Source: Gammaproteobacteria bacterium
Lineage (GTDB): Bacteria; Pseudomonadota; Gammaproteobacteria; Eutrophobiales; Eutrophobiaceae
Assembly: GCA_004297165.1 (NCBI GenBank)
Contig: SCUJ01000006.1
Location: 682,001 to 746,000 of the forward strand
Length of the DNA stretch: 64,000 bases
Direction of reading: 5' to 3'
Made by a program: the position numbers and the translations under genes. This document shows, piece after piece, positions 7,581 to 42,233 of the stretch. Numbering within the stretch: the stretch's first letter is position 1; each line of letters begins with the position of its first letter. The notes beneath the pieces are model-generated. The model was not told where the DNA came from and did no database searches. It worked only from the letters and a program-made list of their open reading frames with translations.

Positions 7581-8930
7581 TTATTCCAGCGGCGCCAGGC
7601 CGTAAGCATAACGCAGCAACGAATATGGCGAAGACGCGCGGCTGCCGTCCGCAAGACCATCCTGTATATGAGTGGCTGCCATCGGGCAATCGCTGATGTA
7701 ATGATCGGCCTGGAACTGCTTCACCTTGGCGACGACTGGCCGGCATATCTTCATGGCAAGATCGTGAAATTCGCTCTTCACGGCATAGGTGCCGTCGTGG
7801 CCGGAACAGCGTTCAATCACCTCAATCTCCGTGCCCGGCACGAGTTTCAATATCTCCACGGTCTTCAACCCGATCTTCTGGACCCGCTGATGACAGGGCA
7901 CGTGGTAGGCGATCTTGCCCAGGGCATTCTTGAAACTGGTATTTAAACGACCTTCACGATGGAGCAGCGCGAGGTATTCGCAGGGATCACGAAACGCGGC
8001 CTGTACCTTGCGCACATCTGCATCGTCGGGAAACATGAGCGGCAGTTCCTGTTTGTACATAAGCACGCAAGACGGCACCTGGGCCATCAAATCCCACCCT
8101 TCATCCACCAACCTCGCCAGTCTCGGGATATTGAACTCCTTCGCCTGGGCGACCGCTTCCAGATCCCCCAGCTCCAGTTTCGGCATGCCGCAGCAACGTT
8201 CTTCATCCACTAGCCTTACGGGGATGCCATTGTGTTCCAGGACCCGCACCAGGTCGCCGCCCACCTCCGGGTTGTTGCGGTTGCCATAGCAGGTAGCAAA
8301 TAACGCGACTCGTCCATTGAGGTCACCGACCTTGACGGATTTAGTGGAACCTGTATGAGCCTTGAGGCGCTTGCGCAGGGTCCGGCTGTGAAACTCCGGG
8401 AGGGTGGCGTCGGCATGCACTCCAAAGGTCTTGTCCAGCACCTTGCGGAAGGGACGATTGCGATTGGTGGCGTTGACGATTGCAGCCACCACGGGGATCC
8501 CGGCGATATTGCCAACAGCATCCGTGGAAGTCAGGACCCTATCGCGAAACCGGGTGGCGCCTTTTCGGAAATTCACAGCCTTGGCCTGCAGCATGAGGTG
8601 AGGGAAATCGACATTCCACTCATGCGGCGGGACATAAGGGCATTTAGTCAGGTAGCAAAGGTCGCATAGATAACATTGCTCGACTACTTTGTAGTAATCG
8701 GTCTTGGCGACGCCATCCACTTCCAAGGTGGATGACGCATCCACCAGATCAAACAAGGTGGGAAAGGCATGACATAAACTGACACATCGGCGACACCCGT
8801 GGCAGATGTCAAAAACCCGCTCCAACTCCCTATTCAGCTTTTCCTCGTTGAAATAGTCGGGATTCCGCCAATCGATCGGATGACGGGTTGGCGCCGCCAA
8901 GCCACCCTCGCGTACTTCATTTTCGTTCAT
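7581..8930 (-). CDS. Fe-S oxidoreductase with CCG domains (rubrerythrin-associated)
   Basis: 449 residues. Two 4Fe-4S motifs lie near the N-terminus: C43/C46/C49/C53 and C86/C89/C92 with C97 (one residue longer spacing than the usual CxxCxxCxxxCP). Cysteine-rich segments follow (FATCYGNRNNPEVG, EERCCGMPKLELGDL, YHVPCHQR, ERCSGHDG). The ATG at 8930 (MNENEVREGG) is preferred over an ATG six codons upstream. It sits between rubrerythrin (76 bases upstream) and DUF3501 (overlapping downstream). It is likely to supply electrons to rubrerythrin (inference from the gene trio). Confidence 0.85.
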   Translation of the reverse strand: MNENEVREGGLAAPTRHPIDWRNPDYFNEEKLNRELERVFDICHGCRRCVSLCHAFPTLFDLVDASSTLEVDGVAKTDYYKVVEQCYLCDLCYLTKCPYVPPHEWNVDFPHLMLQAKAVNFRKGATRFRDRVLTSTDAVGNIAGIPVVAAIVNATNRNRPFRKVLDKTFGVHADATLPEFHSRTLRKRLKAHTGSTKSVKVGDLNGRVALFATCYGNRNNPEVGGDLVRVLEHNGIPVRLVDEERCCGMPKLELGDLEAVAQAKEFNIPRLARLVDEGWDLMAQVPSCVLMYKQELPLMFPDDADVRKVQAAFRDPCEYLALLHREGRLNTSFKNALGKIAYHVPCHQRVQKIGLKTVEILKLVPGTEIEVIERCSGHDGTYAVKSEFHDLAMKICRPVVAKVKQFQADHYISDCPMAATHIQDGLADGSRASSPYSLLRYAYGLAPLE

Positions 8931-9007
8931 GGCGCACCAATCCCCCAATATTGACGGACCGATCCGGCGATCGGTCCGTCATGCAGATGCCGACCATCAG
9001 TTGATAT

Positions 9008-9427
9008 TTAATTTCCTAGACTATCCAGGGCTTTCTGAAAACGGTTGGCATGTGAACGCTCGGCCTTGGCCAGTGTCTCGAACCACTCCGCGATTTCGCC
9101 GAAGCCTTCTGTGCGCGCGGTCTTGGCCATACCCGGATACATATCGCTGTATTCATGGGTTTCTCCAGCGATGGCCGCCTTCAGATTCAAGGCTGTCGTT
9201 CCGATGGGTTGACCGGTGGCAGGGTCCCCGACTTCCTCAAGATAGGCAAGGTGGCCGTGTGCGTGCCCAGTCTCGCCTTCCGCTGTGGAGCGAAAGACCG
9301 TAGAGACGTCGTTATAGCCCTCCACATCTGCCTTCTGGGCGAAAAACAGATAACGCCGGTTGGCCTGGGATTCGCCTGCGAATGCATCTTTGAGATTCTG
9401 TTCAGTCTTGCTACCTTTAAGTGCCAT
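9008..9427 (-). CDS. Rubrerythrin (diiron domain only)
   Basis: 139 residues. A four-helix ferritin-like diiron domain is shown by E19, the E52-x-x-H55 pair and the second-half ExxH-type segments (GETHEY, KAERSH). There is no C-terminal rubredoxin domain, so an external electron donor is needed; the adjacent Fe-S oxidoreductase is the obvious candidate. Rubrerythrins reduce hydrogen peroxide. A strong AGGAGA ribosome site lies 7 bases upstream of the ATG. Two overlapping perfect dyads lie upstream (see separate entry). Confidence 0.9.
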
Positions 9428-25567: not shown

Positions 25568-26581
25568 ATGTCGATGACGATGAACGCCAAGACTGATTGC
25601 CTGACCGACCGTTTCGGACGCACGGTGAATTATCTCCGTATGTCAGTCACCGATCGGTGCGATTTCCGTTGTGTCTACTGCATGGAAGAGGAAATGACCT
25701 TCGTGCCCAGGGCACAACTCCTGACACTGGAAGAACTGGCCTTCATCGGCCGCGCCTTCTCGGAAATGGGCGTGCGAAAGATCCGCATCACCGGCGGTGA
25801 ACCCCTGGTGCGACGCGACATCGACAAGCTGTTGCATGACCTGGGACGCCTGCCCGGTCTCGCGGAATTGGTGTTGACCACCAACGCCTCGCAATTGGAA
25901 TCGATGGCCCCGGTCCTGCGCGATGTCGGCGTCAGCCGCATCAATATCAGTCTCGATTCGCTGGATCCGGACCGTTTCAAACGCATCACCCGCGTGGGCG
26001 ACTTGAACAAGGTCATGCGCGGCATCGAAAGTGCGCGGCAGACGGGATTCAGGCGGATCAAACTCAATACAGTGATCTTGAAAAACCGGAATCACGATGA
26101 AGTTGTCGATCTGGTCCGGTTTGCGATCGACAAGGGCCTGGATATCACATTCATCGAAGAGATGCCGCTCGGATTCAACAACGACCATGACCGCGCCGAG
26201 GTCTATTATTCCAGCGACCGGATCCGCGTCGATTTGGAGCAGGTGTTTACCCTGATCCCCACCACGGAAACGACCGGTGGACCGGCCAGATATTTCAAAC
26301 TCCCGGACGCCGACACCCGGATTGGATTCATCTCCCCTCACAGTCACAACTTCTGCGAAGACTGTAATCGCGTGCGTCTTACCTGCGAGGGACGCTTGCT
26401 GCTCTGTCTGGGCCAGGAACACTCCATGGACCTGCGTCATGTGGTGCGAGCCTGGCCGGGCGATATGGAGAAGCTCAAGCAGGCGATACGCGATGCGATG
26501 CAGATCAAACCCAAGGGTCACGAATTCGATCTTAAGGCCAAACCGCTGATCTTCCGGCATATGAACTCTACCGGGGGTTGA
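25568..26581 (+). CDS. moaA: GTP 3',8-cyclase MoaA
   Basis: 337 residues. The radical-SAM cluster motif is C31/C35/C38. A second 4Fe-4S site is formed by the C-terminal FCEDCNRVRLTCEG...LLC, and the protein ends in Gly-Gly, as functional MoaA does. It converts GTP to the cyclic precursor on the way to cyclic pyranopterin monophosphate, together with MoaC. It is first gene of a tight five-gene operon (moaA-fdhD-mobA-mobB-moeA). Three in-frame ATGs lie within the first five codons. Confidence 0.95.
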   Translation: MSMTMNAKTDCLTDRFGRTVNYLRMSVTDRCDFRCVYCMEEEMTFVPRAQLLTLEELAFIGRAFSEMGVRKIRITGGEPLVRRDIDKLLHDLGRLPGLAELVLTTNASQLESMAPVLRDVGVSRINISLDSLDPDRFKRITRVGDLNKVMRGIESARQTGFRRIKLNTVILKNRNHDEVVDLVRFAIDKGLDITFIEEMPLGFNNDHDRAEVYYSSDRIRVDLEQVFTLIPTTETTGGPARYFKLPDADTRIGFISPHSHNFCEDCNRVRLTCEGRLLLCLGQEHSMDLRHVVRAWPGDMEKLKQAIRDAMQIKPKGHEFDLKAKPLIFRHMNSTGG

Positions 26582-26582
26582 G

Positions 26583-27461
26583 ATGCGCGCCATGTACCGG
26601 CCGGAGATGACTCACGCCGGCCTCGATCCCACGATCGCGGTGATTGCGGTGGATGAATACCGCAACCGGCGCGAGATGAACATCGCCGAAGAACGGCCTC
26701 TGACCATCTATCTCGATCGCCACGAAATTGTAACTTTGATGACGCTCGGCACCCATCCCGAGTTGTTGTGCCTCGGGTATCTCCGCAATCAAGGTATCGT
26801 CAAGGATCTGCATGACATCCGTTCCATCCACGTCGATTGGTCGGTGAATGCGGCGGCGGTGGCGACCCATTCGGAATCCGTCGCCTGGCGCGAGCAGTTG
26901 GGATCCCGCATCGTGACCACGGGTTGCGGTCAAGGCACCGTATTCAGCAATATCATGGAACGACTGTCCGAGATCAGGTTGAAGCCGTATCAACTCAAAC
27001 AATCGGTGATCTACGGATTGCTTCGCGAACTGGGCAGGAGCAACGACGTCTACCGGAACGCCGGGGCCGTACACGGCTGCGCCTTGTGCCAGGCCGAGCA
27101 GGTGCTGTGCTTCATCGAGGATGTGGGTCGGCACAACGCGGTGGACGCCATCGCCGGAAAGATGTGGCTGCAAGATGCCGCAGGGGCCGACAAGATCTTC
27201 TATACCACCGGACGCCTGACCTCCGAAATGGTCATCAAGGTCGCGCAGATGGGGATACCCATTCTGCTCTCCCGCTCCGGCATAACCCAGATGGGCCTGA
27301 AACTCGCACGGGATCTCGGCGTAACCCTGCTGGCGCGGGCCAATGGCAAACATTTCCTCATTTACAATGGCGAGGAAAACATCGTTTTCGACGAAAAACT
27401 CCCCCCCAAACTCGAAGTCGCCAATCTGGCCGGGCGACCCGATCAAACTGCGGCTTCATGA
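26583..27461 (+). CDS. fdhD: Formate dehydrogenase accessory sulfurtransferase FdhD
   Basis: 292 residues. The essential Cys pair is in GAVHGCALCQAEQ, and EDVGRHNAVDAIAGKM plus TTGRLTSEMVIK are FdhD signatures. FdhD delivers sulfur to the molybdenum cofactor of formate dehydrogenase, so the genome should encode a Mo/W formate dehydrogenase, although none is in the window. It starts 1 base after moaA and overlaps mobA by 4 bases. Confidence 0.95.
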   Translation: MRAMYRPEMTHAGLDPTIAVIAVDEYRNRREMNIAEERPLTIYLDRHEIVTLMTLGTHPELLCLGYLRNQGIVKDLHDIRSIHVDWSVNAAAVATHSESVAWREQLGSRIVTTGCGQGTVFSNIMERLSEIRLKPYQLKQSVIYGLLRELGRSNDVYRNAGAVHGCALCQAEQVLCFIEDVGRHNAVDAIAGKMWLQDAAGADKIFYTTGRLTSEMVIKVAQMGIPILLSRSGITQMGLKLARDLGVTLLARANGKHFLIYNGEENIVFDEKLPPKLEVANLAGRPDQTAAS

Positions 27462-28078
27462 ACATAAATTACCTGAATAAATTCGCCGATGTGACGGGCG
27501 TCATTCTGGCCGGGGGTCTGGCGCGGCGAATGGGCGGCCAGGACAAGGGGCTGATCGACTACAACGGCCGGCCGTTGATTGAACACGTCCTGCCGCGGCT
27601 GACGGCACAGGTTCAGGACGTGGTAATCAATGCGAATCGCAACCTCGATATCTATGCCAATTACGGCTGGCAGGTGATCAAAGATGATCTGGATGGTTTT
27701 CACGGCCCACTCGCCGGCATGGCAACCTGCCTCGCGCGAGTAAAGACGCCATATCTGGCTACAGTACCGTGCGACACCCCGTATATGCCGTCCGATCTGA
27801 TCGCCCGTCTCCGTCGCGATCTGCTCGCGAACGACGCCGAGATTTGCGTCGCCCACGACGGGCGCCGGATCCAGCCGGTCTTCGCACTGTTGAAGGCCGG
27901 CCTCCAGGATTCGATCCTGGCTTATCTTCAGGACGGCGATCACCGGACCGATCTCTGGTTCTCTAGGCATCGCCTGACGCTGTCCGATTTTTCCGATGTG
28001 CCGGACGCGTTCTTCAATATCAATCACCCGGAAGACATAATGCCAGGAAACGAAACCAGGATGAGGAACGCGCTGTGA
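27458..28078 (+). CDS. mobA: Molybdenum cofactor guanylyltransferase MobA
   Basis: 206 residues from an ATG at 27458 that overlaps the fdhD stop as ATGA. The nucleotide-binding signature GVILAGGLARRMGGQDKGL is followed by GPLAGMATCL and TVPCDTPYMP. It transfers GMP to Mo-molybdopterin to make the guanine dinucleotide cofactor used by DMSO-reductase-family enzymes such as formate dehydrogenase. Confidence 0.95.
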   Translation: MNINYLNKFADVTGVILAGGLARRMGGQDKGLIDYNGRPLIEHVLPRLTAQVQDVVINANRNLDIYANYGWQVIKDDLDGFHGPLAGMATCLARVKTPYLATVPCDTPYMPSDLIARLRRDLLANDAEICVAHDGRRIQPVFALLKAGLQDSILAYLQDGDHRTDLWFSRHRLTLSDFSDVPDAFFNINHPEDIMPGNETRMRNAL

Positions 28079-28620
28079 GGGATATCAAGATTCCGCTCAT
28101 CGGATTTGCCGCGTACAGCGGCACCGGCAAGACCACCTTGCTGGTCAGCCTGATCAGGATCTTCAAGGAACGCAGTCTGCGAGTGGGGATGATCAAGCAC
28201 GCCCACCACAACTTTGAGATTGATTATCCCGGCAAAGACAGCTTCGAGTTGCGCAAGGCGGGGGCGACCCAGGTTTATGTCTGTTCCGGAACGCGCTGGG
28301 CCTTGATGGTGGAACGCGAACCAGGTCCCGCGGACACGCTCCAGGATCATATCGATCGCCTGGATGCGAAAAACCTGGATCTGATCCTGGTTGAAGGATT
28401 CAAGCCTGCTATCATACCCAAGATCGAACTGCATCGACCAATACTCGGCAAGCCGCTATTATTTCCACAGGATAGTTCCATCATCGCCATCGCGACGGAT
28501 AAACCGGAACTCATGACGACGGCGCTGCCCGTGCTCGATTTGAACGATCCGGAGGCCATTGCGGCCTTCATCAGCGAACATATTCTGCATCAACACGCCG
28601 CCAACGCTGTTGAAATTTAA
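28075..28620 (+). CDS. mobB: Molybdopterin-guanine dinucleotide biosynthesis protein MobB
   Basis: 181 residues from a GTG at 28075 overlapping the mobA stop (GTGA). The P-loop is AAYSGTGKTTLLVSLI, followed by VGMIKHAHH and LILVEGFKPAIIPKIE. MobB is a GTP-binding adaptor that aids MobA but is not strictly essential in E. coli. Confidence 0.93.
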   Translation: MRDIKIPLIGFAAYSGTGKTTLLVSLIRIFKERSLRVGMIKHAHHNFEIDYPGKDSFELRKAGATQVYVCSGTRWALMVEREPGPADTLQDHIDRLDAKNLDLILVEGFKPAIIPKIELHRPILGKPLLFPQDSSIIAIATDKPELMTTALPVLDLNDPEAIAAFISEHILHQHAANAVEI

Positions 28621-28635
28621 TTGCGAGCCGTACAC

Positions 28636-29904
28636 ATGTCTGAAACATCAATAACTGCCGAAACCTGTTGCCAGGACGATTCTGACCCGCATTCCCTGAC
28701 CCCCGCCGCGGCCCTGTCCCGTATTCTTACGACCATTACGCCGCTGGCGGATACGGAAAAGGCGACGCTGGGCGAGGCATTGAACCGGGTCCTCGCGGAG
28801 GATATTCATTCACGGATTGATGTGCCGAATTGCACGAACTCCGCCATGGACGGTTACGCGGTCCAGGGCGCCGATATCCCCGGTGGCGGAACCAGGGAAT
28901 TGCGGATCGTCGGCACTGTATTCGCCGGCAAACCCTTCCCTGGAAAGATCGAGTCGGGTGCTTGTGCGCGCATCATGACCGGCGGCGTGATGCCTGCCGG
29001 CGCCGATACCGTGATCACCCAGGAGTCTGTGGAGAGAAACGGCGACATCATCCGGATCGATGACCGAACCCGTCCGGGCGATAATGTCCGGGAGGCCGGC
29101 GAGGACGTTCGCGCCGGCGATCGCATCCTTACGCAGGGCGCCCGGCTGACACCGGCTGACATCGGCCTTCTGGCCTCGCTTGGCCTTGCCGAGATTCCCG
29201 TCACGCGCCGCCCCAAGGTTGCATTTTTATCAACCGGCGATGAACTTCGTTCGGTCGGGGAAACGCTGGACGCAGGCCAGGTCTATGACAGCAATCGCTA
29301 CACAATCCGCGGCATGCTCGAACGGCTCGGAGTCGAGACCATCGATTTCGGGGTCATCCGCGACACCAGAGAAGAGATTGAACGAGCGTTGCGGGAAGCA
29401 GCCGCAGAGGCAGATGTGGTCATTACCTCCGGGGGCGTCTCGGTCGGTGAGGCGGATTATGTCAAGGAGACACTGGTTAAACTGGGCGCCATCAATTTCT
29501 GGAAGATTGCCATCAAGCCCGGCCGTCCGCTGGCCTTCGGGACGATCGATCACAGCTACTTTTTCGGCCTGCCCGGCAACCCGGTATCGGTCATGGTGAC
29601 CTTCTATCAGTTCGTCCAACCCGCGTTGCTGCGCCTCATGGGCGCAAAATCGGAGGAACCGCTGACTGCCAACGCCATCTCTCTCTCCAGCCTGAACAAG
29701 GCGCCTGGCCGGGTGGAATACCAGCGCGGCATCCTGGGCAAGGATGAACAAGGGCGCCACGTTGTCCGCAAGACCGGCGCACAGGGCTCGGGGATCCTGA
29801 GTTCAATGTCCCAGGCCAACTGCTTCATCGTGCTGCCGATGGAGTGCGCGGGGATCAAGGCCGGAATGGAAGTCGAGGTGCAGCCATTCCACGGCCTGAT
29901 CTGA
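28636..29904 (+). CDS. moeA: Molybdopterin molybdenumtransferase MoeA
   Basis: 422 residues from the ATG at 28636, 15 bases after mobB. Motifs: NSAMDGYAV, GVMPAGADTVI, GQVYDSNRYTI, TSGGVSVGEADYVKE and GLPGNPVSVMV. It inserts molybdate into adenylylated molybdopterin. A TTG-based extension of five codons is possible but not needed. Confidence 0.95.
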   Translation: MSETSITAETCCQDDSDPHSLTPAAALSRILTTITPLADTEKATLGEALNRVLAEDIHSRIDVPNCTNSAMDGYAVQGADIPGGGTRELRIVGTVFAGKPFPGKIESGACARIMTGGVMPAGADTVITQESVERNGDIIRIDDRTRPGDNVREAGEDVRAGDRILTQGARLTPADIGLLASLGLAEIPVTRRPKVAFLSTGDELRSVGETLDAGQVYDSNRYTIRGMLERLGVETIDFGVIRDTREEIERALREAAAEADVVITSGGVSVGEADYVKETLVKLGAINFWKIAIKPGRPLAFGTIDHSYFFGLPGNPVSVMVTFYQFVQPALLRLMGAKSEEPLTANAISLSSLNKAPGRVEYQRGILGKDEQGRHVVRKTGAQGSGILSSMSQANCFIVLPMECAGIKAGMEVEVQPFHGLI

Positions 29905-29940: not shown

Positions 29941-31278
29941 TTAGGCCCCGTACTCCTTGCAGAAGGAAATCATCGCCCGGACATTATCGGCCTTGACATC
30001 CTCGAAGCCGGCGCCCGTCGACATGATATATCCTCCGTCGCGCCCCACCTTGTCGATGAGGTTCCGGCAATATCCTGTCACGCTCTCAGGAGTGCCGGTG
30101 CACATCAGGGACAACGGTACATTGCCCATGATGCAGGCGACATCGCCCAGGGTCTCCTTGGCCTTGATCATGTCCGTTTGGTCGAACCACCAGATCACCG
30201 AGCCCTTCGGCAGATCCCGGATCGCCTCCAGACGTTTGTTATAGGAACCTTCGGCAAACAACAACGGCACGCAACCATCGTTGATCAGACCGATAAGAAC
30301 CTTGCGGAAACTCGGCCAGTAGAATTTATCGAACTGCGCCTGCGACATGAAACTGTCCGCGCCCTTGTGCAGGGGCATGAAGACCAGCGGATTGCCGCTG
30401 GCCCTGGTAGAAGCCACGCCGATCTTTATCATGAATGGGACCATCCGCTCGCAGGCCTCGAGCAACAGATCCGGACGTTTGTAGATGTCCATCATGACCC
30501 CGACCGTTCCGCGCATGCTGTCGCCGATGGCATCCAGCGGGGCCTTGGAGAACCCACCATACAATGTGGGATAGCCCTTGCCCATGATCTTGAGATTCAC
30601 TCCGGTCTGGGCCTTGAACCAGTCATTGACCTCTTGTCCGGCCTCCGTCAGTTTCTGCAGCAGACCACTAAACTCAGGCGTCCCGAAAGGCCGGACTCCG
30701 GCCGAGATCATCGGGATCTCGAGCTGGGCGGGAATCAGCGGCAAAGCCGCGAGCGGTGCGAGATTCCCGGCGATGCGGGGGAAATACACGCTCAGCATGT
30801 AGCCGGTGGGGTCATCGATGAAATCCTGATACTCATCGGCCTTCATGTATTCCTTCTCGATGTACTGGAAGGATTTGTCGTTCCCGATACCTGCCCCCGC
30901 CCATTTATACAGCCGATAATCGAGCAGGTCGAGAATTTTGCCGGAGACGAGATTGCCCGGCGTGTTGTATGTATCAGGCTGGAATTCGTCGTAATACTTC
31001 TCCCAGACAACGGCGAGTTTGGCGTTATCGTAATGCGCGTCGCGGAACGAGATGCCGCCGTATTGCACCGGATAAAATCCAGGCGATGGACAGACCGGAA
31101 TACGTTTTGGTTTCTTTTCAAGGCTCAGGGCGTCGACAAGCATATCGACCTTCTCCTGATAGACCGCTATCGCCGCCGGACTGGAAAACGGCACATGTTC
31201 GGCCTCGCGCCAGATCCTGAATCGTTCCTGACGTTTCGCTTGCGCATCCGCTGCGACTGTTAACCACCGTTCTTTCAT
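29941..31278 (-). CDS. UroD-family (MtaA/CmuA-type) corrinoid methyltransferase, substrate unknown
   Basis: 445 residues of the uroporphyrinogen-decarboxylase superfamily (COG0407): GKGYPTLYGGFSKAPLD, GNPLVFMPLHKGADSFMS, IMGNVPLSLMCTGTPESV. It is much longer than HemE and sits in a corrinoid methyltransferase locus, so it is probably the substrate:corrinoid methyltransferase (MT-I) rather than a heme enzyme. The HxC...C zinc signature of MtaA/CmuA is not visible: the aligned segments read LLFAEGSYNK and STGAGFED. It is divergent from the LuxR regulator; the corrinoid protein is 3 kb further on the opposite strand. Confidence 0.8.
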   Translation of the reverse strand: MKERWLTVAADAQAKRQERFRIWREAEHVPFSSPAAIAVYQEKVDMLVDALSLEKKPKRIPVCPSPGFYPVQYGGISFRDAHYDNAKLAVVWEKYYDEFQPDTYNTPGNLVSGKILDLLDYRLYKWAGAGIGNDKSFQYIEKEYMKADEYQDFIDDPTGYMLSVYFPRIAGNLAPLAALPLIPAQLEIPMISAGVRPFGTPEFSGLLQKLTEAGQEVNDWFKAQTGVNLKIMGKGYPTLYGGFSKAPLDAIGDSMRGTVGVMMDIYKRPDLLLEACERMVPFMIKIGVASTRASGNPLVFMPLHKGADSFMSQAQFDKFYWPSFRKVLIGLINDGCVPLLFAEGSYNKRLEAIRDLPKGSVIWWFDQTDMIKAKETLGDVACIMGNVPLSLMCTGTPESVTGYCRNLIDKVGRDGGYIMSTGAGFEDVKADNVRAMISFCKEYGA

Positions 31279-31516
31279 ACCACCACTCTCGAATTATTGG
31301 AATTAATAGACAATTGGCGAGGAAGTTTCATAAACCAGGGCGACAGCCGGGCGCCGCCGGAAAAGCGGCGACACTCTAACAGTTTTTACCCGGTCTTGCC
31401 ATTTCAAGGCGGTAGACAGCGGCAAACCGCGCTGCGGAATGCGGGAGTACGGGAGAAATTCCAAGCGGTGTTGTTGTGCTATCATGATCGAAAAAATATC
31501 TTGGTAGAACGGGGTT

Positions 31517-32329
31517 ATGAGCAGCATTCCAACAACAACGGGGATTACGGAACTCACGGCCGAACTGGTTCGGGCCATTTCCCATCCGGACTTTCCTCAG
31601 AAAGTGCTGGCCTACACCAAGCATTTCACCGCCGTGGACCATTTCAGTCTCATCGTCTATGGACCGACGCTGGAACCGATCCTCATCGAGTCAGCCAGTT
31701 ACTGGAAGGCCAAACAACTCGATCAGGCCGAACAGACCTACCGGAAACGGGATTACCGCTTCGATCCGGTAATAGAACGGATCCGTAACGCAAACCCGTC
31801 CACCGATGGCCATGATTTCATCCGGGTCAAGACCGAGGACCTGATCCATTCGAACCACCCCTGGGGACCGGGGTATGTCGAGCGTAAACACGCGGAGCGC
31901 GTGTCGCAGTTGTGCCAGACGACCTCCCTCTGGTATCTGCTCAGCTATTATCGCAGCACTGACACCGGCATCTTCAGGGCCAGGGATCTCGAACGCCTGA
32001 CACAGGCGGTCGTGGTGGTAAGGGCCGCGGTGGAACAGCATCTGGCCTCGCCCATCGCCGCGGAACTGAAATTCGGCAAGCGCCCCTCCACGGTCTGGAT
32101 GGAGCGCCTGCTGGCCAAGACGAGCAATAACCTTAGCCCGCGTGAGATCGAGGTCTCGGCGCGCGCCTTGCTCGGCATGACCCGGAAAGGGATTTCCCTG
32201 GATCTCGAGATATCGGAGAGTACCGTAAATACCCTGAAGAAGCGCTGTTATACCAAATTGAACATCAACTCCCTGAATCAACTCTTTGCCCTTTGCCTAA
32301 GACAGCTCAGCGAAGTCTCTCCTGCCTGA
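31517..32329 (+). CDS. LuxR-family transcriptional regulator
   Basis: 270 residues. The C-terminal GerE-type HTH is clear (LSPREIEVSARALLGMTRKGIS, then LEISESTVNTLKKRCYTKLNI). The N-terminal ~180 residues look like a ligand-sensing domain but match no named sensor by eye. It is transcribed divergently from the UroD-type gene across 238 bases, which makes it the best candidate local regulator of that gene. Confidence 0.85.
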   Translation: MSSIPTTTGITELTAELVRAISHPDFPQKVLAYTKHFTAVDHFSLIVYGPTLEPILIESASYWKAKQLDQAEQTYRKRDYRFDPVIERIRNANPSTDGHDFIRVKTEDLIHSNHPWGPGYVERKHAERVSQLCQTTSLWYLLSYYRSTDTGIFRARDLERLTQAVVVVRAAVEQHLASPIAAELKFGKRPSTVWMERLLAKTSNNLSPREIEVSARALLGMTRKGISLDLEISESTVNTLKKRCYTKLNINSLNQLFALCLRQLSEVSPA

Positions 32330-32332
32330 CAA

Positions 32333-32471
32333 GCCGTTAAAAAACTGCTGCGCTAGGCATAACGGCGTTGCGCGCGGTCTCGAAATCCTCATTTACTGAC
32401 GCGTAAACTGCGGTTTCTCGCCCGTGCGCGTCTGGTTCTGCCGTCGCTCGCGACGTTTTTTCAACAGCCTG
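32333..32471. repeat. Imperfect palindromic intergenic repeat (MITE-like)
   Basis: About 139 bases between the convergent LuxR and NAT genes. The left end GCCGTTAAAAAAC and the right end (read on the other strand) GCTGTTGAAAAAAC are near-identical inverted termini. The centre contains TTTACTGACGCGTAAA, also imperfectly palindromic. The TTTTTTCAACAGCCTG end resembles a dispersed repeat type common in gammaproteobacterial intergenic regions (recalled, not searched). It could act as a two-way terminator. Confidence 0.6.
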
Positions 32472-32477
32472 TTAATT

Positions 32478-33278
32478 CTACAAGGCTTTGAAATCCTCAT
32501 AATTCGCATCCAGACAGATCCCGAAACGGGCCTTCAGCATCTCCATATACTCTGGACCCGCCTCGATGTTCTGCAATTCCTCACGGCCATCCTGGATTAA
32601 CCGGAGAGAGTGGTTCAGGAGGGATGTTGCGCCTCCGGGATTGGGGAGATGCGCGACACGAAAACGGACGAAGGTCGAATGGGGATGGGTCTCGGTAAAA
32701 TGATTGCTCATCTGGATATCCGCAGCGGTGACGATGCCGGTATCGAAACTATAAACATCCTGCCACCCTTCCTGATGCTCTATCTGCAGAAGATTGCCAA
32801 ATCCGCCGTCTTCAATAAGCCGAAAATGGAAACCATCCTGCACGGTCATATAACCCGGTTCCAGCGGCATGGGCGCCCGCAGGCCGGAAGCGCCGAATCC
32901 CACATCCAAGATAAAATCGCGACCGCGATTGCGCACCAGCGTGATGAGATGACTGCGACCGGTAACCTCGCCCCTGCGACGGACCCGGGCCAATGCCGAT
33001 CTGGCTTCGAAGCCGAAAGCCAGCAGGGCCGTCCGCATCAGCGTGTTCAACTCGAAGCAATACCCTCCCCTCCTGCCCAGGACGATCTTGTGAAACAGCG
33101 AGCGAGGGTGGAGATCGAGTTTTCGCCCCAACTGAATGTCCATATTCTCAAAGGGGATGGCGAATAACTGGGCGCGGCACAACCGCGTTAGACCTGCTTC
33201 GGAAACAGAGATCGGTCCGGTCAGATTTATCCGCTCCAGGTAAACTTCCCAATCGAATTCGTTATCTGCCTCGGTCAT
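32478..33278 (-). CDS. Arylamine N-acetyltransferase
   Basis: 266 residues from the ATG at 33278, with GGGGA 6 bases upstream. The catalytic triad is intact: C74 in RRGGYCFELN, H110 in GRSHLITLV and D125 in FILDVGFG. NATs acetylate aromatic amines and hydrazines with acetyl-CoA. It lies inside the methyltransferase locus, divergent from the TetR gene by 156 bases. This hints at, but does not prove, an aromatic substrate for the locus. Confidence 0.92.
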   Translation of the reverse strand: MTEADNEFDWEVYLERINLTGPISVSEAGLTRLCRAQLFAIPFENMDIQLGRKLDLHPRSLFHKIVLGRRGGYCFELNTLMRTALLAFGFEARSALARVRRRGEVTGRSHLITLVRNRGRDFILDVGFGASGLRAPMPLEPGYMTVQDGFHFRLIEDGGFGNLLQIEHQEGWQDVYSFDTGIVTAADIQMSNHFTETHPHSTFVRFRVAHLPNPGGATSLLNHSLRLIQDGREELQNIEAGPEYMEMLKARFGICLDANYEDFKAL

Positions 33279-33434
33279 GATCATTCCCCGATTTACACAC
33301 CTCATCGTATCAAAAATCTTCCCGTGGCGTATTCGGCGTCGGCGGGAACGCCGCCGCATACCGAACCGTAATTCGCTTCCGCATGCGTTATACGGATCTT
33401 ATAATCCAGCAGGCAAGCCTTTGAGGATGCCCCC

Positions 33435-34055
33435 ATGGAGAATAAAAGCAGAGTCGCGACCCGGAAGTACCAGGGCATCCTGGACGCCGCAACGGATCTG
33501 TTTCTTGAGCACGGATACCAAGAGGCCAGCATCTCCAAACTGCTGAGCCGATTCGGTGGTTCGCGCGAGACCATTTATCGTCACTTCCGGAGCAAGGAAG
33601 AACTGTTTGCCGCAGTGCTCGATCATCAGTTGCAGGATTATCTCGAATTCATGCTGGCCCTCGACATTCAAAGCGATGATCTGAAGCAGGGGCTTCGCGA
33701 ATGGTCAAATGCCCTGATGGGCATCGTGACCTCGGAGCGTTACATCAGGTTGCGAAGACTGGTCATCAGCGAGGTAACCAACCGGCCGGTGCTCGGCCAG
33801 ATTTATTACGAACATACCTACATGAAAGGCACCACGGCCATCACCGGATTTCTCAGACGGCAGCAGCAAAAAGGCCGACTCAAATCGATAAACTGCAAAC
33901 GCATGACGAGCTACCTCGTCGGCATGATGCTGTATGAAATCATGCACAAGCGGATTATGAACATCGTCCCTGCACCTACCAAAGAACAGATATGCATGCA
34001 TACGGAAGAGGTTCTGGATGACTTCATAAGCCTATTTGGAATCAACAAGATATAG
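33435..34055 (+). CDS. TetR-family transcriptional regulator
   Basis: 206 residues. The N-terminal HTH is typical (ILDAATDLFLEHGYQEASISKLLSRFGGSRETIYRHFRSKEELFAAVL, residues about 15-62). A C-terminal ligand domain of the AefR-like type follows (TSERYIRLRRLVISEV). It is upstream of the corrinoid-protein gene on the same strand. A 19-base dyad at 34143-34161, downstream of it, is a candidate operator. Confidence 0.93.
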   Translation: MENKSRVATRKYQGILDAATDLFLEHGYQEASISKLLSRFGGSRETIYRHFRSKEELFAAVLDHQLQDYLEFMLALDIQSDDLKQGLREWSNALMGIVTSERYIRLRRLVISEVTNRPVLGQIYYEHTYMKGTTAITGFLRRQQQKGRLKSINCKRMTSYLVGMMLYEIMHKRIMNIVPAPTKEQICMHTEEVLDDFISLFGINKI

Positions 34056-34379
34056 CTGTATAACAGGCCATTTCCCTATTCTCCCGCAGTATTCTTTCCG
34101 ACGCTTCACCGGAAAGTTAGGTATTGTCATGATTTACATCAATTTACAGTTTGACAGTAAATGGTTTTTGCCCATAATGCGGCTTCGACTCTGGAATCGC
34201 CGTTCGAACACATTCCAGGGGTTCCGTAAATCGCGTTGCCTGCATGCATCGGCTTAGATCGATACTGTCGTATCCATGTATGACATACCATTGACTCGCG
34301 GCTGCATAAAATAACGATGTTTTTTCTCTGGGATTAAGCCGGGTAACTGAAAATTATAATTATTTGGAGATTTTCAATT
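34056..34379. other. Intergenic region upstream of the corrinoid-protein operon
   Basis: 324 bases without a convincing gene. A 73-codon frame from 34036 overlaps the TetR end and has no protein-like features. It holds two dyads: 34143-34161 and a short GTATG-A-CATAC at 34278-34288. The promoter of the corrinoid operon must lie here. No cobalamin-riboswitch core was recognised. Confidence 0.55.
34143..34161. promoter_or_regulatory. Candidate TetR-type operator
   Basis: TTTACAGT-TTG-ACAGTAAA is an 8-3-8 inverted repeat with one mismatch per arm pair, about 90 bases after the TetR stop and 220 bases before the corrinoid-protein start. A further TTTACA lies just upstream (34133-34138). Confidence 0.45.
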
Positions 34380-35033
34380 ATGAGCGAACAGCAGCAGAAA
34401 CTGATTGATTTGATTGCCGACATGAATGAAGAGGAAGCCATTAAATTGGCGAACTCGATGCTCGACAGCGGCTACGATCCGATGAAACTCCTGGAACACT
34501 GCCGCGCCGGGATGGACGTCGTAGGCAAACGCTTCGAATCAGGCGAATATTTCCTGCCCGAACTCATGCTCGCCGGTGAAATGCTCACCGAAATCAGTAA
34601 AAAAGCAAAACCGCTCATCCAGGAATCCCAGACGGGAGGCGCCGCCTCCACCAAGGGCACGGTCATCATCGGCACTGTCCATGGCGACCTCCACGATATC
34701 GGCAAGAATATCGTTACCTTCATGCTCGACATCAATGGTTATAAAGTGATCGACCTCGGCATCGACGTCCCCGTCGATACCTTCATCGATTCCATCAAGG
34801 AACACAAGCCTTCCGTGGTGGGTCTTTCGGGCTTCCTGACACTCGCCTTCGATTCCATGAAGGAAACCATCGAGGCCATCAAGGCCGCGGGGTTGCGTGA
34901 TGACATCAAGATCATGATCGGCGGCGGCCAGGTGGACGACACCATCCGGGATTACACCGGCGCGGATGCCTTCGGCCTTAACGCCATGTCCGCTGTCAGC
35001 CTGTGCAGCGGTTGGATCAAGGCAGCCGCCTGA
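34380..35033 (+). CDS. Corrinoid protein (MtaC/MttC-like cobalamin-binding methyl carrier)
   Basis: 217 residues. An N-terminal helical cap (about 1-90, GEYFLPELMLAGEML) precedes a Rossmann-like B12 domain. The cobalt-ligating motif is D103-L-H105-D-I-G108, followed by GLSGFLTLAFDSM and IMIGGGQVDDTIRDYTGADAFG. It carries the methyl group between the two methyltransferases of the locus. GGAG lies 9 bases upstream of the ATG. Confidence 0.95.
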   Translation: MSEQQQKLIDLIADMNEEEAIKLANSMLDSGYDPMKLLEHCRAGMDVVGKRFESGEYFLPELMLAGEMLTEISKKAKPLIQESQTGGAASTKGTVIIGTVHGDLHDIGKNIVTFMLDINGYKVIDLGIDVPVDTFIDSIKEHKPSVVGLSGFLTLAFDSMKETIEAIKAAGLRDDIKIMIGGGQVDDTIRDYTGADAFGLNAMSAVSLCSGWIKAAA

Positions 35034-35164
35034 TCCCTGCTTGAAATCGGACATCAAGCTGGCGTGGCAATTGGTCAGCGGGAAGGTCCGACAGCAAGCC
35101 GCCTGCGAAACATCCGGCCCCGATTCGCAATCGAGGCATAACGGAGGCGTCTGTTTAACAAGCC

Positions 35165-35875
35165 ATGCCAGTCATCGACGATTTCAATCTCGCAATCGAC
35201 CCGGATGAGATCCTGCAACTACGCACCGTAGGCGACAATCCCCGGACCCGGCCGCGCATGGCGAAGCTGGTCCGGGAAATCCTGGATGAATTGGAAATAC
35301 AGTCCCTGATCCGGCCACGCGCGACATATGCCTTTGTGGCGGTGACTGAAATGATGCCCGGGCAGGTCACACTCGCCGAAGGCACTGTATTCCACGCCCC
35401 ACTCCTGACACATCACATGGCGGGCGCGGCACACCTGGTTCCTGTCGTGGTGACCATTGGTCAGGCGATCGACGCCGCAATCAGCGACTGTTTTGCCCGC
35501 GGCGCCAGTCTGAAGGCGGTACTTCTGGAAGAGATCGCCAATCAATTTCTCTTCAAGGCCGGCGAACACTGCGAGAAATCGATCGCCGCGACTGCCGCCG
35601 GCCTGAACCTGCAAACCAGTGGCACGCTCGCGCCGGGGCATGAAGGGATCGAGTTCGATAATCAGGTCAAGGTCCTGAAGTTGTCCGGCGCCGACTACAT
35701 AGGCATCCGGATGTCCCGTACGGGAGTCATGGACCCGGTACACTCCACTTCCTTCATCATCGGCGCCGGTTCGCGTATGCGCTATTGGACCCAGGCTGAA
35801 AATTGTCAGACCTGCGCGGCCAGGGTGAAATGTCCACACCGCCGTGAAACCAGCGCCTATGCCGAGTGCGCCTAG
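35165..35875 (+). CDS. MetH-activation-domain-like protein with C-terminal cysteine cluster
   Basis: 236 residues. The region LAPGHEGIEFDNQVKVLKLSG...GVMDPVHSTSFIIG matches the reactivation domain of cobalamin-dependent methionine synthase, where this fold binds SAM for reductive methylation of cob(II)alamin. The C-terminus adds C214, C217, C223 and C235 (CQTCAARVKC), a likely Fe-S or metal site. It lies directly before the RACE gene, with no gap. It probably helps to keep the corrinoid protein active; whether it binds SAM is not known. Confidence 0.8.
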   Translation: MPVIDDFNLAIDPDEILQLRTVGDNPRTRPRMAKLVREILDELEIQSLIRPRATYAFVAVTEMMPGQVTLAEGTVFHAPLLTHHMAGAAHLVPVVVTIGQAIDAAISDCFARGASLKAVLLEEIANQFLFKAGEHCEKSIAATAAGLNLQTSGTLAPGHEGIEFDNQVKVLKLSGADYIGIRMSRTGVMDPVHSTSFIIGAGSRMRYWTQAENCQTCAARVKCPHRRETSAYAECA

Positions 35876-37696
35876 ATGACCCATGATTCCACTCAACCCA
35901 CACGGATAGAATTCGATCCGGATGGGGTTGCGATCGAGCCCCGGCCCGGAGAAACGTTACTGGAGAGCGCGCACCGGGCCAAGGTGCGGATCGCCAGCGC
36001 TTGCGGCGGCAGAGGGATATGTAAATCCTGCATTATTCACTTTACCGGCGGCGAGACCCCGCCGCCTTCTCCGAGCGATCGCGATTTTTTCAGCGCCGTC
36101 AAACTGGAGCGTGGCTGGCGCCGCGCCTGCCAATGCTCGGTCTCCGGCAGCAGCCGGGTCCACATACCGGCGCGGGCGCGGGCCGAATCCACGCGAATGC
36201 AGGTCGACGGTTCCGATTTCTGGGTGCAGCCGGAACCTATCGTGGCAAGCATCGAAGTCAAACTGACGAAACCCTCCCTGAATTATCCGGAAGCGGATTT
36301 CGAAAGACTGGTTGAAGCGCTTAACCAGGAACGCGAACCCACGACCTGGAGCATCGATCCGGAAGCCGCGCGCAACCTCCCGGAAGTCCTGCGCCAGAAC
36401 AATTGGGCGGTCCAGGCGGTGGTCCGCAATGATGAGATCATCGCGGTACAGCCGGTCAAGACCCGGCTCGTCGGCCTCGCGGTCGATCTGGGCACCACAA
36501 ATATTGGCCTCTTCCTGGCGGATCTGCACAGCGGCACGACCATCGCCTCGACGGGCATCGAGAATCCGCAAGGCATTTATGGAAGCGATGTCGTCTCGCG
36601 GGTCGGGGCCGCGGCGACCGATGCCGACAAGGCAATACAGATGCAACGTTTGGTGATCGACGCCATCAATCAGCGTGTACAGGGCATGTGCGATGCCCAT
36701 AACCTGACCCCGTGGCAGATCGTGGATGTTGTGGTCGCGGGGAACACTGCCATGCACCACATCTTTGCCCGTCTTCAGGTCAGGGGACTCGGTCTTGCGC
36801 CATTTACCCCGGTGATCACCGGCCCCTTGCAGATTAAAACCAGAGAACTCGGACTGGCATGCGCCCCCGGCGCGCAGATTCACATGGTTCCCAACATCGC
36901 CGGATTTGTCGGCGGCGATCACACCGCCATGCTTATCGGCATCAGTGCGCACACGGAGAAGCGCACCGTCATCGCCCTGGACATCGGCACGAATACCGAG
37001 ATATCCCTTTTACATAACGGCGCTATAACCAGTCTCTCCTGCCCTTCCGGCCCGGCCCTCGAAGGCGGGCATATCTCCTGTGGCATGCGCGCCGCCGCGG
37101 GCGCCATCGAATCCGTCAAGATTAACGGCGAGGACCTGGAGATCAAGACCATCGGCGACGCCGAACCGATCGGCCTGTGCGGTTCCGGCGTGCTGGATGT
37201 CACCGCCGCCTTTTTCCTGTCCGGCGGACTAAATCCACGCGGACAGATCAACCGTGAATACCGCCATACCGTGCTGCAGGATGATGAGCCGGTTTTTATG
37301 CTGCATCAGGGTGAAACCAATGTGGTCTTCACCCAACGTGACGTCCGCTCCGTGCAATTGGCCAAAGGCTCCATCCGCGCCGGTATCGAATTGTTGCTGG
37401 AACACGCAGGTCTCCACTACGAGCAACTGGATAAAGTGGTGGTGGCAGGCGCCTTCGGCAATTACATCAGCATCGAAAGCGCCTGCACGATCGGATTATT
37501 ACCCCCGCTGCCGCTGGATCGCTTCGAACAGATTGGCAACGCCGCAGGCACGGGGGCCAAACTGATCCTGCTCTCCAAGACCCTGCGCGACACAGCCACG
37601 AATCTCGCGGCCCGCAGCACCCATCTGGTTCAGGCCGGCAACCCGCGCTTCAATAAGCATTTCATGCATACGATAAATTTCCATGACATTAATTGA
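35876..37696 (+). CDS. RACE-type corrinoid activation ATPase (2Fe-2S plus ASKHA domain)
   Basis: 606 residues. An N-terminal plant-type 2Fe-2S domain has C43, C49, C52 and C85. A linker follows, then the ATPase domain beginning at VDLGTTNIGLFLADLHSG with later phosphate and adenosine motifs (ALDIGTNTEISL, GLCGSGVLDVTAAFFLSGGL, VAGAFGNYISIESA). RACE proteins use ATP to reduce inactive cob(II)amide on corrinoid carriers. Its ATG immediately follows the stop of the MetH-activation-like gene. Confidence 0.93.
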   Translation: MTHDSTQPTRIEFDPDGVAIEPRPGETLLESAHRAKVRIASACGGRGICKSCIIHFTGGETPPPSPSDRDFFSAVKLERGWRRACQCSVSGSSRVHIPARARAESTRMQVDGSDFWVQPEPIVASIEVKLTKPSLNYPEADFERLVEALNQEREPTTWSIDPEAARNLPEVLRQNNWAVQAVVRNDEIIAVQPVKTRLVGLAVDLGTTNIGLFLADLHSGTTIASTGIENPQGIYGSDVVSRVGAAATDADKAIQMQRLVIDAINQRVQGMCDAHNLTPWQIVDVVVAGNTAMHHIFARLQVRGLGLAPFTPVITGPLQIKTRELGLACAPGAQIHMVPNIAGFVGGDHTAMLIGISAHTEKRTVIALDIGTNTEISLLHNGAITSLSCPSGPALEGGHISCGMRAAAGAIESVKINGEDLEIKTIGDAEPIGLCGSGVLDVTAAFFLSGGLNPRGQINREYRHTVLQDDEPVFMLHQGETNVVFTQRDVRSVQLAKGSIRAGIELLLEHAGLHYEQLDKVVVAGAFGNYISIESACTIGLLPPLPLDRFEQIGNAAGTGAKLILLSKTLRDTATNLAARSTHLVQAGNPRFNKHFMHTINFHDIN

Positions 37697-37735
37697 GATT
37701 TTCAATCCAGACCATCAACCAACAGGAAAGAAGTA

Positions 37736-38617
37736 ATGAGCATACCTAATCTTGCCATCATCGGGGATCGAATCAACCCAGGGTTCAAGGCGACCCGGAC
37801 CATGATCGAACAACGGGACTTCAAAGGCATCCAGGATCTGGCAAAGCGGCAGGTGCAAACCGGCGCCATCTATCTCGATGTCACGATCGGTCCCAAGGGT
37901 TATGAGGACTACGGCTTGCTGTCCGAGGTGATACAGTCGATTCAGGCGGCGGTGGATACCCCCTTATGTTTCGACTACCCGCATAAGAATGTCCTCGAGG
38001 CCTGTCTCAAGACCTATGATCCCGCGAAGGCAGGCGGCAGGCGCCCGTTGATCAATTCTCTCGCGGAGACCCGCTGGGAGATCATGGATCTGATGGACAT
38101 TCAGCCCTTCAACGTCATCCTCATGGCCTCGGAGCGTCTGGACGAAGGGGCGGCAAAACCTAACAAGCGTTGCGAAGATGTGCACAAGACGGCCAAGCGT
38201 TCAGCCGAGAGGTTGGTAAAGGAGCATGGTCTCGAGCTCAACGATATTTACATCGACGTCACTGTCAGTACGCTGGTCTCAGATACGGAAGGCTTGGTCA
38301 GGATGGCCCTGGACGCCATCGAGTCGATCGGTCTGGACCCCGACCTCAAGGGCATCCATATCGTGGGCGGCCTGACCAACATCGGAAACATGCTGCCGCC
38401 GGTTGAGTTTGACGGCATGAAGCTGCGACATGTCATGGAGAGCGCATTCCTGACAGTCGCTGTCCCTTACGGTTTCGATACGGTCCTCGGCACGCCGTGG
38501 AACGAGTTCCGCATGCTGCCGGAGGACCATGTGGTATTGCAGACCTTCCGCGAGGTGATCGATCTCAAGGGTCTGGATGCCATGCGGAGACTGCGGAAGC
38601 TCTGGGCAAACAAGTAA
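37736..38617 (+). CDS. Methyltetrahydrofolate:corrinoid methyltransferase (MeTr family)
   Basis: 293 residues of the pterin-binding TIM-barrel family (AcsE/MetH-type): IIGDRINPGFKATR, QVQTGAIYLDVTIGPKGYEDYG, CFDYPHKNVLEACLKTY, and GGLTNIGNMLPP. In these systems it exchanges methyl groups between the corrinoid carrier and tetrahydrofolate. It follows RACE by 39 bases with AGGAAAG before the ATG and is closed by a strong terminator, which marks the end of the corrinoid operon. Confidence 0.92.
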   Translation: MSIPNLAIIGDRINPGFKATRTMIEQRDFKGIQDLAKRQVQTGAIYLDVTIGPKGYEDYGLLSEVIQSIQAAVDTPLCFDYPHKNVLEACLKTYDPAKAGGRRPLINSLAETRWEIMDLMDIQPFNVILMASERLDEGAAKPNKRCEDVHKTAKRSAERLVKEHGLELNDIYIDVTVSTLVSDTEGLVRMALDAIESIGLDPDLKGIHIVGGLTNIGNMLPPVEFDGMKLRHVMESAFLTVAVPYGFDTVLGTPWNEFRMLPEDHVVLQTFREVIDLKGLDAMRRLRKLWANK

Positions 38618-42157: not shown

Positions 42158-42233
42158 GCCGGATTAGCTCAGTTGGTAGAGCGCCCGCCTTGTAAGCGGA
42201 TGGTCCCTGGTTCGATTCCGGGATCCGGCACCA
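42158..42233 (+). tRNA. tRNA-Thr (anticodon TGT)
   Basis: 76 bases. Acceptor arm GCCGGAT / ATCCGGC, D-arm with GCTCAGTTGGTAGAGC, anticodon loop CTTGTAA (TGT), T-arm CCTGGTTCGATTCCGGG-like, and an encoded CCA end. All stems pair. Confidence 0.97.

Follow-up and report, generated by a model that had tools for sequence, protein, structure and literature searches.

A locus for corrinoid-dependent methyl transfer occupies positions 29941–38617 of a 64,000-nucleotide stretch of DNA (the window) from contig SCUJ01000006.1 of a gammaproteobacterium of the family Eutrophobiaceae. We propose, with a probability of about 0.6, that this locus forms the common core of a system for the corrinoid-dependent O-demethylation of methoxylated aromatics, in which the methyl group would be oxidised to CO2 with nitrate as the electron acceptor. 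The initial annotation of this DNA had described a module with all four roles of corrinoid methyl transfer, namely a methyltransferase I (MT-I) of the UroD superfamily, a corrinoid carrier with a DLHDIG motif, a MeTr-type methyltransferase II (MT-II) and an activator, accompanied by two local regulators. Domain and family models bear out each of the four roles and both regulators, although the gene list had passed over a fifth gene of the module (35165–35875) and a gene of the N-acetyltransferase family. The window is part of a 1.78-Mb contig (C13) of a 3.53-Mb genome in 13 contigs that is 99% complete and 0% contaminated; this genome is referred to as G000, its relatives by G-numbers (77 genomes were sampled for co-occurrence), and other loci by L-numbers.

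The four closely spaced plus-strand genes at 34380–38617 form an operon. The first of these (34380–35033) encodes a B12-binding corrinoid protein of 217 residues, the putative methyl carrier, which contains both PF02607 and PF02310 together with a DLHDIG motif of the DxHxxG type, and which scores 174 bits against the model for methyltransferase cognate corrinoid proteins (TIGR02370), below the cut-off of 215. The third (35876–37696) encodes a RACo-type ATP-dependent corrinoid activator of 606 residues that has an N-terminal 2Fe-2S (Fer2) domain followed by the RACo linker, middle and C-terminal domains (PF00111, PF17650, PF17651 and PF14574 are matched), and whose closest solved chain is 3zyy (E = 1e-84). 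The fourth (37736–38617) encodes a MeTr-type MT-II of 293 residues, predicted to transfer methyl groups from the methyl-corrinoid to tetrahydrofolate (THF), that matches PF00809 and scores 115 bits, below the cut-off of 259, against the methyl-THF:corrinoid methyltransferase model NF005719; among solved structures it matches 2yci, the closest, and 4o0q. Against the MetH model the corrinoid protein reaches 128.9 bits and MeTr 56 bits, where the cut-off is 1010.85, and because the corrinoid protein is the sole PF02607 match in the whole genome, MetH is absent. An Rfam scan of the entire window revealed no riboswitch (for example, for cobalamin), its single match being a tRNA at 42158–42230.

The second gene of the operon (35165–35875), the one overlooked initially, encodes a protein of 236 residues with no match in Pfam or NCBIfam. 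Its sequence resembles that of 1j6r, a methionine-synthase reactivation-domain protein, with an E value of 0.0026 for the single sequence and of 1.2e-8 for a profile of four orthologues, and the next, weak matches of this profile are MetH reactivation domains. All three cysteines of its C-x2-C-x5-C motif are invariant in the four orthologues, and a search of the loci from other phyla with the profile found no relatives. The fold predicted from the single sequence had a confidence score (pLDDT) of 35, and the profile search against solved sequences was relied on in its place. The profile match identifies the protein as a predicted relative of the MetH reactivation domain, and we propose it as a candidate second activation factor.

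The MT-I gene (29941–31278, minus strand; 445 residues) lies outside the operon, 3.1 kb away and on the opposite strand. Its product matches PF01208 with 67–72.3 bits over the second, C-terminal half of the model only, whereas the true HemE of this genome, encoded on contig C5, scores 468 bits with the same family. The window MT-I scores 19.8 bits against the hemE model (cut-off 302.95) and 34.4 bits against the MtaA/CmuA model TIGR01463 (cut-off 235.4), and the HxC zinc motif of thiol methyltransferases is absent from all 15 MT-Is of the family that were examined. Its closest solved relative is CdmB, with approximately 33% identity over the C-terminal part of CdmB only; the active-site positions that read PLH and FxEG in the clade of the window MT-I, near-invariant there as is C382, read PVW and FQG in CdmB. 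The predicted model (pLDDT 92) has a UroD fold with a Z score of 26.7, and a comparable value of 26.4 has been reported for CdmB against human UroD (PMC13222342). HemE structures and a Methanosarcina methyltransferase headed a fold search of a library reaching to April 2026, in which CdmB was not listed; we do not take the rank of the HemE structures as evidence for HemE function. Together these scores indicate that the window MT-I is a UroD-superfamily corrinoid methyltransferase, and neither HemE nor a fragment of MetH. Neither of the two outcomes that the initial annotation had named as fatal to a module, a UroD protein that groups with HemE or a corrinoid protein that groups with MetH fragments, was thus found.

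The genome encodes, on three contigs, five MT-Is of this family (the window MT-I next to the core and four others elsewhere) with mutual identities of 32–45%, together with a single PF02607 corrinoid protein and a single RACo. The five fall into separate branches of a tree in which they are interleaved with sequences from the Chloroflexota, Myxococcota, Spirochaetota and other groups, which argues that they are not recent copies of one another; this tree includes no biochemically characterised references and so assigns no substrates, and several of its joins are unsure on account of long branches. Since five divergent MT-Is are accompanied by only one corrinoid protein and one activator, the locus looks like a shared hub for five MT-Is. 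The initial view of a corrinoid methyl-transfer module is therefore retained, but not as a self-contained unit. Outside the genus, the closest homologue of the window MT-I is a Myxococcota sequence with 56% identity (L008), the gene of which directly precedes that of a corrinoid protein, and contigs of Dehalococcoidia/Chloroflexi (L010, L013, L014, L015, L016, L017 and L019) encode in one run a corrinoid protein, MeTr and a tandem series of four to seven MT-Is. On the strength of these clusters, the pairing of this type of MT-I with this type of carrier is conserved across phyla. In the Dehalococcoidia runs, a single carrier seems to serve an array of substrate enzymes.

The order of the genes for the corrinoid protein, the reactivation-like protein, RACo and MeTr is kept in G001 (same genus), G002 and G020, and the same core pieces occur in G017, split over two contigs. 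G001 also keeps the places of the regulators, the N-acetyltransferase gene and the molybdenum (Mo)-cofactor cluster, so that synteny extends to another species of the genus. A gene set of this kind is far from what chance would produce. In G001, MetV and MetF genes directly follow that for MeTr, and a second gene resembling methylene-THF reductase (MTHFR) precedes that for the corrinoid protein. RACo is missing from most other genomes of the family, and the RACo of the g16 genomes is only approximately 32% identical. Three further arrangements were seen in relatives. G001 carries, between the TetR and N-acetyltransferase genes, a gene (L051, 12667–13776) that is not in the window and that encodes a zinc alcohol dehydrogenase with the look of a glutathione-dependent formaldehyde dehydrogenase. 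The sequence of G016 (L056; same family) contains an apparent MttB-type methyltransferase together with a corrinoid protein, MTHFR genes, MeTr and a RACo of this divergent kind. G062 (L055; another family of the class) has in one cluster a UroD-type protein, a corrinoid protein, RACo, a MetV–MetF fusion, MeTr, a FolD-like gene and a protein that weakly matches Met_synt_B12, with, by eye, a Rieske-type oxygenase nearby.

The initial annotation left the substrate unnamed. The window indeed contains no pointer to it, but methoxylated aromatics are suggested by the gene neighbourhoods of relatives and by the joint occurrence of the core with the benzoyl-CoA pathway. One MT-I gene of G002 belongs to a run of genes for a 3-hydroxybenzoate-CoA-ligase-like protein, Had, Oah and Dch (the last three above curated cut-offs) and begins approximately 12 bp downstream of a thiolase gene; in G017, another MT-I is encoded on the same contig as a corrinoid protein and a thiolase. 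Oah, a marker of the benzoyl-CoA pathway, was found in 9 of the 77 sampled genomes, including all five that have the core. G000 itself encodes Had, Oah and Dch above cut-off, with AFOR-family and 2-oxoacid:ferredoxin oxidoreductase-like proteins within approximately 4–18 kb. About 4 kb from Had–Oah–Dch lies an AFOR-family oxidoreductase with a C-terminal ThiS domain (L115, 387–2705; C13), which may be either an aldehyde oxidoreductase or a BamB-type benzoyl-CoA reductase. An MT-I of G000 has as neighbours an MFS transporter and two FAD_binding_4/FAD-oxidase_C oxidases, one of which adjoins a cytochrome c; an Anaerolineae MT-I cluster (L021) likewise contains a FAD_binding_4 oxidase. For known UroD-superfamily MT-Is of such type, the substrates are haloalkanes or methoxylated aromatics (PMC13222342, PMC8630106). 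Because of the benzoyl-CoA neighbourhoods, the co-occurrence and the known O-demethylases of the superfamily, methoxylated aromatics are our best guess for the MT-I set as a whole, and they are probably also the substrates of the window's own MT-I.

Several observations weigh against this assignment. The window MT-I, itself adjoined by no substrate gene, shares only 39% identity with the G002 MT-I from the aromatic run. The hypergeometric probabilities for the co-occurrence of the core with Oah, 6e-6 by genome and 9e-5 by genus, carry no correction for shared descent, and three genomes have Oah without RACo. G020 has the core and Oah, but an MT-I of the window family was not found there. Moreover, benzoyl-CoA reductase and FolD were not identified in G000, although no search aimed at either was made.

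It is also possible, if not probable, that the window MT-I uses the same machinery with a different methyl donor, for example a haloalkane (chloromethane or another), a methylated osmolyte, or the ether of a steroid or terpenoid. Betaine and methylamine systems usually employ MT-Is of the MttB, MtbB or MtmB type rather than of the UroD type, which counts against this idea, and the linkage to and co-occurrence with the benzoyl-CoA pathway favour aromatic substrates. The absence of aromatic genes alongside the window MT-I is consistent with another donor, as is the identity of its closest solved relative, since CdmB is the MT-I of the Cdm chloromethane system of Acetobacterium, which follows the same logic of MT-I, corrinoid protein and MT-II. 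The resemblance is nevertheless limited to the partial identity and is attended by the residue differences at PLH and FxEG described above, and the MT-Is of our genome vary, with relatives among aromatic-degradation genes. CdmB is, in turn, closest to the O-demethylase MtoB yet inactive on methoxylated aromatics, so that the substrate is unreadable from superfamily membership (PMC13222342).

With regard to the fate of the methyl group, HdrA (1564 residues), MvhD, MetV, MetF and a fused HdrBC-like protein are encoded in one cluster approximately 33–42 kb upstream of the window (L057, 2253–10575; C13). The protein after MetF resembles a fusion of HdrB and HdrC, and MvhD, which was named from its motif and position rather than from a family model, contains an in-frame TGA within VAG-U-LPGRCHY (L057, 6937–7428). 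The same genes make up the Hdr-type methylene-THF reductase (HdrCBA–MvhD–MetVF) of acetogens such as Moorella and Sporomusa (PMC9430772), from which the cluster differs in its unusually long HdrA, the HdrB–HdrC-like fusion and the TGA of MvhD, and in the setting of a genome in which acetyl-CoA synthase was not found. Also encoded are formate-THF ligase (Fhs), two formate dehydrogenase alpha subunits (FdhA) that score above cut-off, one of them with a TGA in HCARL-U-HAPT, and NarG. Decoding of these TGA codons as selenocysteine (Sec) is credible because SelA, SelB and tRNA-Sec are all encoded (contig C2; L099, 3653–5557, 7593–9002 and 12812–12899). A small open reading frame beside SelB (L099, 5765–6085) looks UGSC-like by eye. 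CdhC of acetyl-CoA synthase was looked for in G000 and not found and, given the presence of Hdr–MetVF, Fhs, FdhA and NarG, oxidation of the methyl group to CO2 is favoured over acetogenesis; the Hdr–MetVF cluster is probably used for the oxidation of methyl-THF. Most genes for the route from methyl-THF to formate and CO2 that was suggested initially are thus present. The argument first made for that route, the adjacency of fdhD and Mo-cofactor genes, is weak: the adjacency is conserved in the genus, but these genes serve every Mo enzyme (NarG and FdhA included), and the one-carbon oxidation genes lie elsewhere. The system had also been described as of a kind known mainly from anaerobes. The lineage is unusual for it, but with AFOR-family and 2-oxoacid:ferredoxin oxidoreductases, Hdr proteins, NarG and a Sec-type formate dehydrogenase the host is not a typical aerobe, and the class name makes the anaerobe-like module seem odder than it is.

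These genes suggest the following scheme. RACo would use ATP and electrons to reduce Co(II) to Co(I) on the single corrinoid protein, probably assisted by the reactivation-like protein, which might, speculatively, serve as a point of electron entry or as a second activator of the S-adenosylmethionine (SAM) type. Each of the five MT-Is would then move a methyl group from its own substrate to Co(I), and MeTr would pass it on to THF. The resulting methyl-THF would be converted to formate via the Hdr-linked MetVF complex, one-carbon folate enzymes and Fhs, and formate to CO2 by formate dehydrogenase, with the electrons presumably coupled to nitrate through the encoded NarG, while the demethylated aromatic products may enter the benzoyl-CoA pathway. 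Only tentatively do we extend this to a composite picture of a nitrate-respiring lineage that uses several methoxylated aromatics through one hub, has the hub in place of a lost MetH for methionine synthesis, oxidises the methyl groups fully with an acetogen-type, selenoprotein-containing Hdr–MetVF complex run in reverse without acetyl-CoA synthase, and degrades the ring through the benzoyl-CoA pathway.

An alternative that we consider unlikely is that the core chiefly serves as a split methionine synthase, in which MeTr loads the corrinoid protein and a separate enzyme methylates homocysteine, replacing MetH. The genome lacks MetH, the core resembles a MetH cut into modules, the reactivation-like protein included, and MetE-like proteins are present that might act as acceptor enzymes; moreover, MtgC and MtgD of R. 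pomeroyi offer a precedent for methionine synthesis alongside betaine demethylation (PMC12478193). However, a methionine synthase has no need of five MT-Is, the MT-Is lack the HxC zinc motif, the G001 operon carries MetVF, the core co-occurs with an aromatic pathway, and the MetE-like proteins may suffice for methionine by themselves. A dual role of the hub that includes methionine synthesis is plausible; a purely anabolic role is unlikely because of the five MT-Is.

Still less probable, and in our estimation very improbable, is transfer in the methylating direction, in which the methyl-corrinoid would methylate a substrate to start its degradation, as the estrogen methyltransferase of Denitratisoma does. 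We considered estrogen methylation of this type early on, since the EmtABCD system likewise performs corrinoid methyl transfer in nitrate-reducing steroid degraders, a gammaproteobacterium among them, with a RACE-like gene nearby (PMC7448270), and dropped it because EmtA is described as MtmB-related, in contrast to the UroD-type MT-I found here. The donor in that system is SAM rather than methyl-THF, and MeTr, MetVF–Hdr, Fhs and formate dehydrogenase fit oxidation. Finally, the idea of an artefact, in which a HemE paralogue and MetH fragments (UroD and B12-binding domains being common to HemE and MetH) are neighbours by chance or a contig is a contaminant, has a negligible probability and is refuted in substance by the model scores, the copy numbers, the length of the contig in an uncontaminated genome, the synteny in a second species and a G+C content of the module (0.561) near that of the window (0.570).

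Set beside characterised systems, O-demethylation by the hub would most resemble Odm/Vdm of Acetobacterium, Mtv of Moorella and Mto of Methermicoccus, which likewise combine a UroD-superfamily MT-I, a separate corrinoid protein, a pterin-dependent MT-II and an ATP-dependent activator (PMC13222342, PMC8630106). The locus shares with them an MT-I distinct from HemE, a corrinoid protein with both B12 domains, an MT-II and an Fe-S activator. As to the clustering of the MT-I gene with that of its corrinoid protein, the two are set apart in the window, on opposite strands; the 56% identical MT-I gene of L008 adjoins a corrinoid-protein gene. The locus further differs in having five MT-Is per corrinoid protein, an additional operon gene resembling the MetH reactivation domain, and a gammaproteobacterial host with a nitrate reductase and no detected CdhC, in which the use of methoxyaromatics is predicted. 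The MtgBCD(E) system of roseobacters and other marine bacteria is similarly modular, occurs in Proteobacteria without MetH, and has RamA-type activation and THF-linked one-carbon oxidation (PMC12478193), but employs the glycine-betaine MT-I MtgB and a DUF1638 protein where the present locus has a UroD-type MT-I and a reactivation-domain-like accessory protein.

Between the MT-I gene and the operon lie three further genes. A LuxR-type (GerE) regulator (31517–32329, plus strand; PF00196) is divergent from the MT-I gene and stands beside the UroD gene in G001 also. A gene of the arylamine N-acetyltransferase family (32478–33359, minus strand; PF00797), the true start of which is possibly downstream of that of the longest open reading frame, separates it from a TetR/AefR-like regulator (33435–34055, plus strand; PF00440 and PF14246) upstream of the operon. 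On the other side of the MT-I gene is the Mo-cofactor cluster moaA–fdhD–mobA–mobB–moeA (25568–29904, plus strand). Farther off, positions 22–2728 and 7581–9427 of the window encode GlcD/GlcF-like FAD oxidase and Fe-S proteins a further Fe-S protein with a CCG domain and, by eye, a rubrerythrin-like protein.

The organisms mainly credited with anaerobic O-demethylation of lignin-type compounds are strict anaerobes, among them acetogens and some methanogens. In the literature we found no corrinoid O-demethylase from gammaproteobacteria or nitrate reducers, which is weak evidence as most subscription papers lay outside the search. If our proposal is true, a nitrate-reducing lineage of gammaproteobacteria would remove methoxy groups and oxidise the methyl group as well as the ring, linking lignin-derived carbon to nitrate reduction. 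The locus would also be a clean case of several substrate enzymes acting on one corrinoid carrier, and it offers, in the MetH-reactivation-like protein with its CxxC-x5-C motif, a directly testable candidate for a second activation protein.

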